Of a stretch of DNA of 40,114 nucleotides, positions 4,544 through 16,545 are shown one piece after another. The translations under genes and the position numbers were made by a program. The stretch covers positions 1 through 40,114 of the forward strand of contig JAJRRY010000035.1 of the NCBI GenBank assembly GCA_024279095.1. The letters are read 5' to 3'. This stretch comes from Alphaproteobacteria bacterium. GTDB taxonomy: Bacteria; Pseudomonadota; Alphaproteobacteria; Rhizobiales; Aestuariivirgaceae. How positions within the stretch are numbered: position 1 is the stretch's first letter; the number at the start of each line of letters is the position of its first letter. The notes below the pieces were generated by a model. It was not told the origin of the DNA. It ran no database searches and worked only from the letters and a program-made list of their open reading frames with translations.

Positions 4544-5374
4544 TCATCCTCCCGATATCTTGAGGGTCTGAAGAGTCTGCAGGATGTCCTGGCTGATCCC
4601 GGTCTCCAAGGGAGCCGAAATCAGTGCATTGGGGGCTGCTGCGGTTGTGGCGGAGCCGCCCCCGTTCATCTCCCACATGGTCGCGAAGCGGGCCAGGAAA
4701 CGTTCCAGTTTTGCCGGGTCCTGGAATTCGGAGATCTTCAGCTTTTCCTCGACGACTTTCGCATTGCGATCAATGTCCCCTTGCGCCAGCGAGTAACCGA
4801 GGACGGTTTCCGCCACTTTCATCAGGGCCGGATCCGCGAGAATGTCGTAGCCGGTGCGAATGCCGGGGGCCTTGCGCTGGAAATAGAGGGCGAGGCGCAC
4901 ACCCTCGTTGCTTTCCCCGGCATCTTCCTCCAGTTTCAGGCGCATGTAGTCGTCCACGACTTCCTGCTGTGCCCGCTCGAAGGTGGTGGCAGCGGAACCG
5001 TAGCTCTTGAAGTTGAAACGCCGTGCGAAATCCCGGAACCGGGTATCGGCAAGCTGGTTGGCAAAACTGTCGGGATTCTCGATGCCCTCTTCGAGAACCT
5101 TCCGCATGAAGGCCTTGGCATAGATCATGTCGCCCAGTCCGGAAGCCTCCATGGCGAAACGGTAGACGCGATCGTCAGCCAGGAACTCGTCGATCGTGTC
5201 GATCTCTCCGATCCGGGAGAGGTAATATTCCGCCTCCCGGGCCACCTGCGGCTGCTCGGAGACCCTTTTCAGGGATGCATCGAGATTGTTGGCGATGAGC
5301 TGATAGTCGGCAAGCGTGGTAAGCATGATCTCCGGCCCCGTAATCACATGTCGAGATGCTGGTCCGGATGACAT
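4544..5374 (-). CDS. DUF1217-family flagellar protein
   Basis: 276-residue protein of the DUF1217 type, found in rhizobial and related flagellar loci between motA and flgF, where it is needed for motility but biochemically uncharacterised. Recognisable stretches are MLTTLADYQLIANNLDASLK at the start, AEYYLSRIGEIDTIDEFLADDRVY, and FARRFNFKSYG. The C-terminus is Ala/Gly rich before a last helix ISQDILQTLQTLKISG. I chose ATG 5374 because a GGCGGAG lies eight bases upstream. ATG 5326, 16 codons later, is an alternative with a nearer GGAG. The longer ORF-track start at 5527 would overlap motA and adds no family sequence. Confidence 0.85.
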   Translation of the reverse strand: MSSGPASRHVITGPEIMLTTLADYQLIANNLDASLKRVSEQPQVAREAEYYLSRIGEIDTIDEFLADDRVYRFAMEASGLGDMIYAKAFMRKVLEEGIENPDSFANQLADTRFRDFARRFNFKSYGSAATTFERAQQEVVDDYMRLKLEEDAGESNEGVRLALYFQRKAPGIRTGYDILADPALMKVAETVLGYSLAQGDIDRNAKVVEEKLKISEFQDPAKLERFLARFATMWEMNGGGSATTAAAPNALISAPLETGISQDILQTLQTLKISGG

Positions 5375-12449: not shown

Positions 12450-13169
12450 ATGTCACAGGACATGAACAACGATTTTTCCGAAAGATACCAGACGCTGCGG
12501 GCGGTGGCGGACAGGGTACTTGATGCCCTGGAGGCTTGCGCGCGCGAAAGATGTGGAAGAAACTTCTTCCATCTTGCCCGTCACTGTTTTCCGGGGCGTT
12601 CGGCGGACGGCACGATCCGGCATGAGGAACTTTTCCTGCCTTGGGCCGTATTTGGCTGGAACCCTCCGGCTGACCTGCGGAAGCTCCCGGAGGCATGCGC
12701 CTGTGATCTGCCGTCCGGGCCGCTGGCACTGGAGTGGCTGCAGACGGAAGGGCCCGACACCGACATGCTGGCAGTACGCTTCGTGCATGCTGCCACCGGG
12801 GCGCTTTTCCGGTTTCTGAGAGTCGAAGGGCACGATAACGGCGTGATGGTGCTGGAGGACATGCTCGACCCGGGCGTCATGCTGAGGATGCCGGCCCGCG
12901 AGGTGCCGGAGGCGCTCCGCGCCGGCGACATGATTTTCTGTCACGCGGTGACGGTGGACGGCATCACGGTTTCCACCCATCCACCACTCGATGTTTCGGG
13001 ATGCACCCGGGACCCCGAGACCAGGGCGCGTTTCGAGGAGCTGCTCGCTCTAGTGGTCGCGGAATTGCGGGCCTCCGGCACCGGACGCAGTCCTGAAGAC
13101 CGGCGCATGCTGGAAAACCTGCTCTTCATGCATGCCCGCTACTGCGGCAGCCTGCCGGTGAAGGTGTAA
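12450..13169 (+). CDS. Conserved-looking protein of unknown function
   Basis: 239 residues, soluble, no signal peptide or membrane segment. The middle (residues ~110-180) reads FRFLRVEGHDNGVMVLEDML, then an acidic beta stretch and EALRAGDMIFCHAVTVDGIT. This resembles the small domain found beside SEC-C motifs in uncharacterised bacterial proteins (a gene for "what follows a ledger of strands then G-D-hydrophobic"), but no SEC-C Cys/His cluster is seen, so that is only a suggestion. The start is ATG 12450 or ATG 12462, the latter with AGGA just ahead. It ends in TAA, one of the few TAA stops here, followed by a strong hairpin. Confidence 0.6.
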   Translation: MSQDMNNDFSERYQTLRAVADRVLDALEACARERCGRNFFHLARHCFPGRSADGTIRHEELFLPWAVFGWNPPADLRKLPEACACDLPSGPLALEWLQTEGPDTDMLAVRFVHAATGALFRFLRVEGHDNGVMVLEDMLDPGVMLRMPAREVPEALRAGDMIFCHAVTVDGITVSTHPPLDVSGCTRDPETRARFEELLALVVAELRASGTGRSPEDRRMLENLLFMHARYCGSLPVKV

Positions 13170-13375: not shown

Positions 13376-13687
13376 TCAGTCATGGTCGCCGCCGTCGGAG
13401 TCGCCACCATCGGAATCGCCTCCGTCATGGTCGCCGCCATCGTGGCCGTCGGAATCTCCATAACCGCCATCATGATCATCATCGCGATCATCGTCGTAGC
13501 CGTCATGGTCGTCCATGGAACCGTAGCTGCCGGACATCTGTCCACCGCCGTTGGAGGAAGATTTTGTGGAGGTGAAATTGTAGCTCTTGTTGTCGGGCGA
13601 AGCCACGGCGGCGCTCTGGGAGGCCATGAGGACGCCGGCGGCACCAAGCATGGCGATCAGGGAGGGGGCGATCATCTTCTTCAGCAT
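13376..13687 (-). CDS. Secreted Asp/Gly/His-repeat protein
   Basis: 103 residues. A signal peptide (MLKKMIAPSLIAMLGAAGVLMASQSAAVAS) is followed by a Ser/Gly-rich part and an acidic tail built from D, G, H and S (DDHDGYDDDRDDDHDGGYG, then GGDSDGGDSDGGDHD). The tail is likely disordered and could bind divalent metals, but does not fit the RTX nonapeptide. The ORF track starts 17 codons early; ATG 13687 has GAAGGAG nine bases upstream. It is divergent from another gene with almost the same GGDSDGGDS repeat, which precedes a two-component system, so the two are probably co-regulated. Function unknown. Confidence 0.7.
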   Translation of the reverse strand: MLKKMIAPSLIAMLGAAGVLMASQSAAVASPDNKSYNFTSTKSSSNGGGQMSGSYGSMDDHDGYDDDRDDDHDGGYGDSDGHDGGDHDGGDSDGGDSDGGDHD

Positions 13688-13947
13688 GTCTTCTTTCTCC
13701 TTCGGACTTTCGTTCTTTCCGGGTTCGGCTCTTTTCATGTGTGATCTGGTGAGACCGTTTTCCGGCGGCCGTTGCCGGTCGCCGCATCGAGCGACGGGAT
13801 TTCCGTGCTCGATGTCCGCACCCTAATCGCTCCGTGCTGACATGCTTCTGACTTGGTCTGTCAGGAAAAAGTCATGTATGAGATTCCTAGAATGGGTCAC
13901 GAATTGCGCCCCTTTATTCTTTCCGCCCGAATATATCGGTAACGCCC

Positions 13948-14436
13948 ATGGGCAAGATCCTGAGAAGACTCTTCCTGATGTTGCTGCTTACCATCGCCTC
14001 CGCGCAGACGCTCCTGCATGTCACGCCGGCATGGGCCGATGATGATGGCGGCGATGGGGGGGATGGCGGCGATTCGGATGGCGGAGATTCCGACGGCGGC
14101 GATGGGGGGGATTCCGACAGTGGCGATTCCGATGGCGGTGATGGAGGTGATGAAGGGACTTCCGGTCATGGCATGGATGACGGAGACGGTTACAACGATG
14201 ATGACGACCAGGAACAGGCCCGCGCAGGCAGGGCTTCCGGGACACTGCTGCCGCTGGATGCCATACTGGCCAAGGTGCGTCGACGCTATCCGGGAACCGT
14301 GCTGAAGGTGCGCCTGAAGCGACGGGGCGGCACCGCATACTATGAAATCCGCATTCTCGACAGGCGGGATCGCGTGCGCACGGTGACCGTGCCGGCAGGC
14401 CCGCGAAGGAAGGGGAACTGGACATCCCGCAGGTGA
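13948..14436 (+). CDS. Exported Asp/Gly-repeat protein with a C-terminal PepSY-like domain
   Basis: 162 residues. The signal peptide (residues 1-30, LRRLFLMLLLTIASAQTLLH then ends near AWA) is followed by ~55 residues of Asp/Gly/Ser repeats (GGDSDGGDSDGGDGGDSDSG) and a PepSY-like domain at ~100-150: LDAILAKVRRRYPGTVLKVR, GGTAYYEIRILDRRDRVRTV. PepSY proteins beside two-component genes are thought to modulate the sensor. The domain breaks off oddly after VTVPA; another frame continues the expected tail and overlaps the response regulator start, so a frameshift near 14400 is possible. Two runs of seven G (14056-14062, 14104-14110) lie in the repeat and could allow slippage. Confidence 0.7.
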   Translation: MGKILRRLFLMLLLTIASAQTLLHVTPAWADDDGGDGGDGGDSDGGDSDGGDGGDSDSGDSDGGDGGDEGTSGHGMDDGDGYNDDDDQEQARAGRASGTLLPLDAILAKVRRRYPGTVLKVRLKRRGGTAYYEIRILDRRDRVRTVTVPAGPRRKGNWTSRR

Positions 14437-14488
14437 TCGCGGCTGAAGGCCGCCTTGCATGCCGAGGACGGACGGGGGATATGGAAGA

Positions 14489-15160
14489 ATGCGCGTACTG
14501 ATCGCTGAAGATGAGGAGGCCATCGCCCGGGATATCGGGCACAGCCTCACACAGGCCGGATACGTGGTGGATTACGCCCTCGATGGCGAGGAAGCGGACT
14601 TTCTCGGATTCACGGAGGATTACGATGCCGTCATCCTCGACCTCGGATTGCCGAAAATGGATGGCCTGACGGTTCTGCGCAACTGGCGACGCGAGGGACG
14701 CGCCTTCCCCGTGCTGGTGCTCACTGCGCGCGGGAGCTGGCAGGAGCGGGTGGAAGGCATCGATGCCGGCGGAGACGACTACGTGGTCAAGCCCTTCGAG
14801 ATGGAGGAGGTTCTGGCGCGGCTGCGCGCCATCATCCGCCGTTCACGGGGGCTCTCTTCAACGATCGTCACCTTCGGGCCGCTGGTCCTGGACACCCGTG
14901 CCGCGCGGGCCACGCTTGACGGCCGTCCCCTGTCGCTGACGCCCATGGAATTTCGCCTTCTCAACTATCTGGCTCACAATCCGGGGCGCGCCGTTCCGCG
15001 TACCGAGTTGATGGAACATATCTACGAAGCCGATTCGGAGCGCACCTCCAATACGCTGGATGTGCTGATCGGCCGCCTGCGCCGCAAGATCGGTCCCGGT
15101 CTCATCGAGACCCGCCGTGGTCACGGGTACATGCTGACCAGCCCGGAAGAGGATGCATGA
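14489..15160 (+). CDS. OmpR/PhoP-family response regulator
   Basis: 223 residues. The receiver domain has the acidic pocket (AEDEE near residue 7-10), the phosphoacceptor Asp51 in AVILDLGLPKMDG, the conserved T/S in VLVLTARG, and Lys in DDYVVKPF. The C-terminal winged helix contains LSLTPMEFRLLNYLAHNPG and TLDVLIGRLRRKIG. I start at ATG 14489 rather than the track's 14459, since MRVLIAEDEE is the normal start. The last bases overlap the kinase gene as ATGA. It probably controls the adjoining PepSY and Asp/Gly-rich genes. Confidence 0.92.
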   Translation: MRVLIAEDEEAIARDIGHSLTQAGYVVDYALDGEEADFLGFTEDYDAVILDLGLPKMDGLTVLRNWRREGRAFPVLVLTARGSWQERVEGIDAGGDDYVVKPFEMEEVLARLRAIIRRSRGLSSTIVTFGPLVLDTRAARATLDGRPLSLTPMEFRLLNYLAHNPGRAVPRTELMEHIYEADSERTSNTLDVLIGRLRRKIGPGLIETRRGHGYMLTSPEEDA

Positions 15161-16545
15161 TCCTGCCCGCCATGCCGAAATCCCTTCGTCTGCGTCTCAT
15201 CCTGCTGTCCGTCCTGGTCATTCTGCCAGCACTCGCGCTGTTTGCATGGCAGCTCTCCCGGGAATTCGAGCAGGACGTGGAGCGCCGCGTGCACCGGGAG
15301 CTGGAAAATCACCTCAATCAGCTCATCGCCCAGGTGGAGGTGGAACCTGGCGGAAGAGTGAAGGTTTCGCGCCCCCTCAGCGATCCGCGTTTCGCCAAAC
15401 CCCTCAGCGGTCTCTACTGGCAGATCAATGAAGGTGATCGCGCCATTGCGCGTTCCCGCTCGCTGTGGGATTCGGTGCTGAAGATCAGCTCCCGCATGCT
15501 CACCCGCAGCGGCGTGCATGAATATACGCTGAAAGGGCCCCGCGGCGAGGAACTCTATGCCCTCGTGCGTGGTGTCTGGCTCGACGGCAAGGGCGGAGAG
15601 CACCGCTACATCTTCACCATTGCCTTGGATCATGGAGACATTTCCTCCGCGGTGCGTGCCTTCGGCCATCAGCTCTATGTCGGGATTGCCATGCTTGCCG
15701 TGATTCTGATCGCCGCCCTGCTGGTGCAGGTGTCCTGGGGATTGCAGCCACTGGCTGCCATTCGTCGCCAGATCGCCCGTATCCGCGCCGGTCAGCAGGA
15801 GGGGCTGGACAATCCGGGACTGGAAGAGCTGGCGCCCCTGACGGAGGAGCTCAATGCCCTGCTGGCTGCCCAGCGCAAGGCCATGGAAGGGGCTCGGGCC
15901 CGTGCCGCCGATCTGGCCCACGGCATGAAGACGCCGCTGGCGATCCTCTCCGCAAGGGCCCGCGGACTGAAGGAGCGGGGACTGAAGGAGGAGGCGGAAG
16001 AAATCGCCCGACAGGTGCGCGTTCTCAGTCGGCATGTCGAACGTGAACTGGCCCGTGTGAAGATTCATGGCAGCCGCCCGGGCACGGCCCCGCTGTCAGA
16101 CGGTGCGCAGGCCGTACGCGCCATCGTGAAGGCTCTTGCGCCCATGCGCGAGAACGGCGATCTCTCCTGGGAGCTGGATGTGCCCGAACATGTGCCCGTG
16201 CCCATGGAGAAGGGAGACTTCATGGAGTTGGCCGGGAACATACTGGAGAACGCCAGCAAGTGGGCCCGTAGTCGGATTCGTGTGAGCCTGCGGGCCGAGG
16301 ACGGTGCAGACGTGCGTCTGCTGGTGGAGGACGACGGTCCCGGCGTGGCCGAAAGCGATTATGAAACCATGCTCGTGCGTGGAGGACGCCTGGACGAGAA
16401 CGTGCAAGGCACGGGGCTCGGACTGGCCATTGTCCGCGATATCGTCGAATCCTACGGATATAGTCTGAAGTTCGGCCCCTCCGGACTGGGGGGGCTGGCG
16501 GTGCGCATCGATTTTGCGCGCGGACGGGACGAGACGTCTGCGTGA
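15157..16545 (+). CDS. PhoQ-type sensor histidine kinase
   Basis: 462 residues, inner-membrane sensor. The first membrane segment is at ~10-30 (LRLRLILLSVLVILPALALF) and the second at ~172-192 (LYVGIAMLAVILIAALLVQV), enclosing a periplasmic sensor of about 140 residues. The H box is ADLAHGMKTPLAIL, in the PhoQ style where the His is followed by G-M-K-T-P. Catalytic boxes follow: N box NILENASKWA, G boxes VEDDGPGV and GTGLGLAIV. It is coupled to the response regulator by a four-base overlap. PhoQ-type sensors often respond to divalent cations or acidic peptides, notable next to two acidic repeat proteins; the signal here is unknown. Confidence 0.9.
   Translation: MILPAMPKSLRLRLILLSVLVILPALALFAWQLSREFEQDVERRVHRELENHLNQLIAQVEVEPGGRVKVSRPLSDPRFAKPLSGLYWQINEGDRAIARSRSLWDSVLKISSRMLTRSGVHEYTLKGPRGEELYALVRGVWLDGKGGEHRYIFTIALDHGDISSAVRAFGHQLYVGIAMLAVILIAALLVQVSWGLQPLAAIRRQIARIRAGQQEGLDNPGLEELAPLTEELNALLAAQRKAMEGARARAADLAHGMKTPLAILSARARGLKERGLKEEAEEIARQVRVLSRHVERELARVKIHGSRPGTAPLSDGAQAVRAIVKALAPMRENGDLSWELDVPEHVPVPMEKGDFMELAGNILENASKWARSRIRVSLRAEDGADVRLLVEDDGPGVAESDYETMLVRGGRLDENVQGTGLGLAIVRDIVESYGYSLKFGPSGLGGLAVRIDFARGRDETSA

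Follow-up and report, generated by a model that had tools for sequence, protein, structure and literature searches.

A DbfQRS-like PepSY module in the Aestuariivirgaceae with a divergent exported partner that shares its N-F motif and tail type

Within the window (the whole stretch of DNA analysed, 40,114 nucleotides from an alphaproteobacterium of the order Rhizobiales, family Aestuariivirgaceae), two small exported proteins with acidic repeats are encoded on opposite strands beside an OmpR-type regulator and a sensor kinase. Does this locus belong to a known kind of system, and what might its divergently encoded protein add? The preliminary description had picked out the four genes, and all were confirmed in place:

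13376..13687, minus strand: divergent exported acidic partner, 103 aa, with signal peptide, N-F motif and Asp/Gly/His/Ser tail; counterparts in relatives
13379..13519, minus strand: low-complexity acidic Asp/Gly/His/Ser tail of the partner, net charge about -19
13562..13585, minus strand: N-F motif of the partner (SYNFTSTK), close behind its signal peptide
13688..13947: intergenic region between the divergent genes, 260 bp
13837..13853, minus strand: TGTCAG-N5-TGTCAG box with 1 mismatch (AGTCAGAAGCATGTCAG), oriented towards the partner
13859..13875, plus strand: second TGTCAG-N5-TGTCAG box with 2 mismatches (TGTCAGGAAAAAGTCAT), oriented towards the PepSY operon
13948..14436, plus strand: exported PepSY protein in DbfQ-like position, 162 aa, with signal peptide, linker and PepSY domain
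about 14038-14208, plus strand: acidic linker of the PepSY protein, reading DDDGGDGGDGGDSDGGDSDGG...
14248-14385, plus strand: PepSY domain (PF03413), residues 101-146
14410..14433, plus strand: C-terminal N-W/N-F tail KGNWTSRR of the PepSY protein, its Asn invariant in 13/13
14489..15160, plus strand: OmpR/PhoB-type response regulator with receiver and Trans_reg_C domains
15157..16545, plus strand: sensor histidine kinase (HisKA/HATPase_c) with a PhoQ-like catalytic half and its own periplasmic sensor domain at about residues 34-172

The partner open reading frame spans 13376-13738 on the minus strand, and the ATG at 13687, with an AAGGAG Shine-Dalgarno sequence, is the likelier start. The protein has an N-terminal signal peptide and its C-terminal end reads ...GGDHDGGDSDGGDSDGGDHD. 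Two candidate identities for it, nec1 and ZrgA (Pfam/NCBIfam), were rejected; their scores were far below the cut-offs and came from low-complexity stretches only. The linker of the PepSY protein is about 57 residues long (42% Asp+Glu, 39% Gly), and the acidic tails of partner and PepSY protein carry net charges of about -19 and -22, respectively. The PF03413 match of the PepSY protein scores 24.2 bits, just above the cut-off of 24. This domain had been described as ending the protein: the domain is there, and after it comes the short basic C-terminal tail with the N-F/N-W motif. The AlphaFold model has a helix and three strands at residues 103-149, with linker and C-terminus disordered, which hints faintly that the linker and N-F tail might be a flexible docking segment. 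A structure search with this model gave zero matches at E<=0.001. The calcium-binding RTX repeat is a nonapeptide, GGxGxDxUx, in which U is a large hydrophobic residue; the window repeats read GGDSDGGDS, by inspection without the hydrophobic position, and RTX membership was rejected. Rfam and tRNA scans of the window found no matches. At 12450-13169 lies an open reading frame of 239 aa, convergent with the acidic gene and free of Pfam or NCBIfam matches.

The three-gene core has a close parallel. A 2025 report on Vibrio cholerae (PMC12714742) describes DbfQ, an exported PepSY protein of small size whose gene lies immediately before dbfRS; DbfQ binds the DbfS sensor domain and shifts DbfS to phosphatase. 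DbfS responds to outer-membrane damage, and DbfQRS-like modules are reported to be widespread. The window likewise encodes a small Sec-exported PepSY protein directly upstream of the OmpR-type regulator and kinase genes, the window protein being 162 aa long whereas DbfQ has 135 aa and a single PepSY domain (PMC12714742). Across 80 relatives, the kinase was matched in 77 genomes and the PepSY protein in 42; in many cases the PepSY match lay about 1 kb upstream of a kinase match, with a regulator between them. An order-wide PepSY-domain profile matched 136/398 genomes. A pattern search of the species-level collection found no relatives of the PepSY protein and, for the kinase, only distant kinases. 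Given the same module in the literature, the triad is not new: it is DbfQRS-like, known in kind and widespread in the order. The idea of a sensor-modulator unit put forward in the preliminary description is well supported by the likeness to DbfQRS and the conserved linkage, but a unit of that kind is already described (PMC12714742). The source genome (G000) also has a further PepSY-regulator-kinase triad at about 767-3445 of contig C105 (L084), with a Pro/Arg-rich linker and without an N-F tail or a good TGTCAG box.

New are the divergent partner, the motif common to both exported proteins, and tails that match and can switch type; the accessible part of PMC12714742 describes neither such a partner nor an N-F motif, and neither tail matching nor a box in common. 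A divergent exported low-complexity partner adjoins the operon in 12 recovered modules: those of the window, G001, G003, G005 (two), G006, G007 (two), G008, G010, G002 (second module) and G030. G030 belongs to another genus of the family and the other 11 modules all belong to the genus of the window. The contigs of the first G002 module and of G009 end too early to show a partner, and G004, a genus member with a complete genome, lacks the module. The arrangement is more than chance, since it recurs in relatives. The preliminary description had named a lack of conserved linkage as grounds for refutation, and the four genes do stay linked, both within the genus and in a single genome from a different one. 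G015 and G053 encode divergent acidic exported proteins at the same place, without the N-F motif. Three further features were seen around these modules. An exported EF-hand protein with a Met/Gly-rich tail is encoded directly beyond the partner gene in G003 (L074 1339-1977). Downstream of the G030 kinase (L086, oriented 4737-5237) lies a gene for an exported Met/Gly/Gln-rich protein whose C-terminal part looks PepSY-like, without a Pfam match. The module kinase on contig C77 of G009 is split over two frames, a frameshift or an assembly error.

The modules fall into two tail types. G002, G005 and G007 carry a second module, and the kinases of these second modules form a separate clade (support 1.0). 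In the window type (A) an Asp/Gly linker pairs with an Asp/Gly partner tail, and in the paralogous type (B) Met/Gly pairs with Met/Gly, the PepSY linker being Gly/Met (MGGGGMGGGGG...) and the partner Met/Gln/Gly-rich. The type B module of G005 is split over contigs C50 and C74, its pairing being assumed. The kinase differs as well: the Glu and EL-x-NH residues that type A has in the helix past the first membrane span are lost in type B. Linker and partner-tail compositions correlate at r=0.98 for Met, 0.88 for Asp+Glu and 0.81 for Gly (n=12); because the matching rests on about two clades, these values reflect mainly the one A/B split plus G003, and are not 12 independent points. In G003 both tails contain Asp, His and some Met.

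The preliminary description had overlooked the N-F motif common to both proteins, the regulator box and the Met-type paralogue. N-F stands shortly after the signal peptide in 12/12 recovered partners, as in SYNFTSTK of the window, RVNFRSRS of G003 and VQNFNTSR of G007 type B, where it sits behind a Met/Gln-rich stretch. The PepSY tails of the same modules end in N-F or N-W (GNWTSRR, RVNFRSRR and IYNFNTGR, respectively), and the Asn is invariant throughout the 13 PepSY tails. Among the PepSY proteins of the order that were picked up automatically upstream of a regulator, N-F or N-W occurs in the last 20 residues of 12/12 from partner modules and 0/34 from other modules. G030 and G061 are sisters in the kinase tree (support 1.0); G030 has both motifs and G061 has neither. 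The residues beside N-F match between partner and PepSY tail (permutation p about 0.003-0.006), with the true partner ranked first by this matching in only 4/12, and co-variation of these residues is suggestive only. Codons of matching motifs in the two genes differ synonymously, which makes recent gene conversion or other DNA copying between the motifs unlikely. N-F was also rejected as an N-glycosylation sequon, Ser/Thr at +2 being missing in most copies. The same motif joined to the same repeat tail, in an Asp or a Met version, suggests a matched periplasmic pair, possibly tuned to different metals.

Could the partner be an unrelated secreted acidic protein, merely co-regulated with a DbfQRS-like module, and the likeness of the tails be owed to G+C-rich base composition and repeat slippage? 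Asp/Gly linkers are indeed common in the PepSY proteins of many partnerless relatives, and the DNA of the two Asp/Gly repeats, both of which score as tandem repeats, forms an imperfect inverted repeat (59 nt, 80% complementary). However, N-F tail and N-F partner co-occur, the Met/Gly paralogue matches in the same manner, and frame-shifted GATGGC repeats would give Met-Ala-Ala and not Met/Gly. We consider this explanation somewhat unlikely.

The preliminary description had proposed a metal buffer beside a PhoQ-type cation sensor: bulk binding of divalent cations to the poly-acidic proteins would set the free-ion level, which the kinase would sense directly. Among NCBIfam models PhoQ fits the kinase best (158.2 bits, cut-off 497, residues 169-458 only), the PhoQ catalytic domain is its best match in the PDB, and the regulator scores 189.8 against the PhoP cut-off of 336. 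The label thus holds for the cytoplasmic half and fails for the sensor domain, which lies outside the match, and strict PhoPQ membership was rejected since both curated cut-offs were missed. The high negative charge of the tails (about -19 and -22) and the EF-hand protein beside the G003 module would suit a buffer, as would the periplasmic Fe2+ binding of BqsS, the kinase of a related system (PMC12666569). The existence of Asp and Met tail versions and the TGTCAG box before cytochrome b561 operons would also lend the metal idea indirect support. In BqsRS/CarRS of Pseudomonas aeruginosa with PA2658/PA2659 (PMC12714742, PMC12666569), PepSY genes lie upstream of a metal-sensing two-component system as they do here, but there are two of them, and the kinase uses an ExxE site. 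The acidic metal-binding face of UipA from Microbacterium offers another parallel, whereas its tandem PepSY domains, membrane span and uranium/iron binding set this PepSY protein apart, and no partner is described there (PMC8963506). Inspection of the periplasmic segment of the window kinase, which past the first membrane helix reads EFEQDVERRVHRELENHLNQL, found none of the ExxE metal sites of iron-sensing kinases. A buffer also leaves the shared N-F motif unexplained and needs a different metal added for the Met-type paralogue, and we regard it as improbable.

The TGTCAG-N5-TGTCAG box is a direct repeat with the 11-bp period usual for OmpR-family sites, and we infer that the module's regulator binds it. 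Both window copies are imperfect; several relatives have exact copies ahead of the corresponding operon. Across the order, about 22/56 loci reach a box score of 12/12, and most reach 10/12 or more. With at most one mismatch the genus has 51 box sites versus 9 for the reversed control pattern, and with at most two mismatches the source genome has 105 versus 85, a small excess. A box with one or two mismatches lies upstream of the PepSY_2 gene in 4/4 genus members having that gene, which is followed by cytochrome b561 in the source genome (G000 contig C100, L003 1228-2221) and in G005; judged by its box, the G000 operon is a likely trans target of the regulator. A box also precedes the cytochrome b561 gene lying directly after the kinase in G010, and in outgroups PepSY_2 is divergent to the triad, in G076 and G053 with cytochrome b561. 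Several TGTCAG half-sites stand in a row in G010 (L083 4213-4330), between the kinase stop and the cytochrome b561/dihaem cytochrome c gene. A redox or envelope-damage module, with Met tails as oxidant sinks, cytochrome b561 shuttling electrons and the kinase reading damage as DbfS does (PMC12714742), would fit the boxes before cytochrome b561 operons, but it seems very unlikely given that Asp-type tails are not oxidant sinks and that by eye, in short flanks, no methionine sulfoxide reductase gene was recognized beside type B modules. Most other box sites of the genus are inside genes or lack a clear downstream gene, and hence we claim no wide regulon.

In FeuN/FeuPQ (Sinorhizobium), CpxP/CpxA and MgrB/PhoQ, too, a kinase is adjusted by a small protein of the envelope, in many cases through feedback; FeuN, CpxP and MgrB are not PepSY proteins, and we know of no matched-tail partner in these systems. 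The reading we prefer, at a probability of roughly 0.5, is a DbfQRS-like module with a fourth gene, in which the two exported proteins are under the regulator's control, kinase activity is modulated by the PepSY protein, and the partner competes in feedback or acts as a co-ligand, its tail matched by metal type. The regulator would bind the boxes between the divergent genes and thereby control the partner gene as well as the operon that encodes it, and would act in trans on the PepSY_2/cytochrome b561 operon through the same box. By analogy with DbfQ, the PepSY protein would dock on the kinase's periplasmic domain, setting the kinase/phosphatase balance. The partner has the same N-F motif and the same tail type and therefore would most likely address the same surface or ligand, binding either the site bound by the PepSY protein or a site on a common ligand; most likely it would provide feedback as a competitor or co-ligand under the regulator's control. 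The role of the Asp/Gly/His or Met/Gly tails is probably to bind the type of metal ion to which the module responds, and tail chemistry would assign hard or borderline cations to Asp/His tails and Cu(I), or reaction with oxidants, to Met tails.

PepSY proteins beside two-component systems are widespread. One could go further and see here a paired PepSY modulator and partner with a common docking motif, duplicated and switched between Asp and Met as a unit, whose tail chemistry sets the metal or stress answered by the kinase, a proposal we put forward tentatively and ourselves rather doubt. The genus provides a natural experiment on such sensing, because a single cell can contain both paralogues of the module, one with matched Asp tails and the other with matched Met tails, and the motif is common to both.
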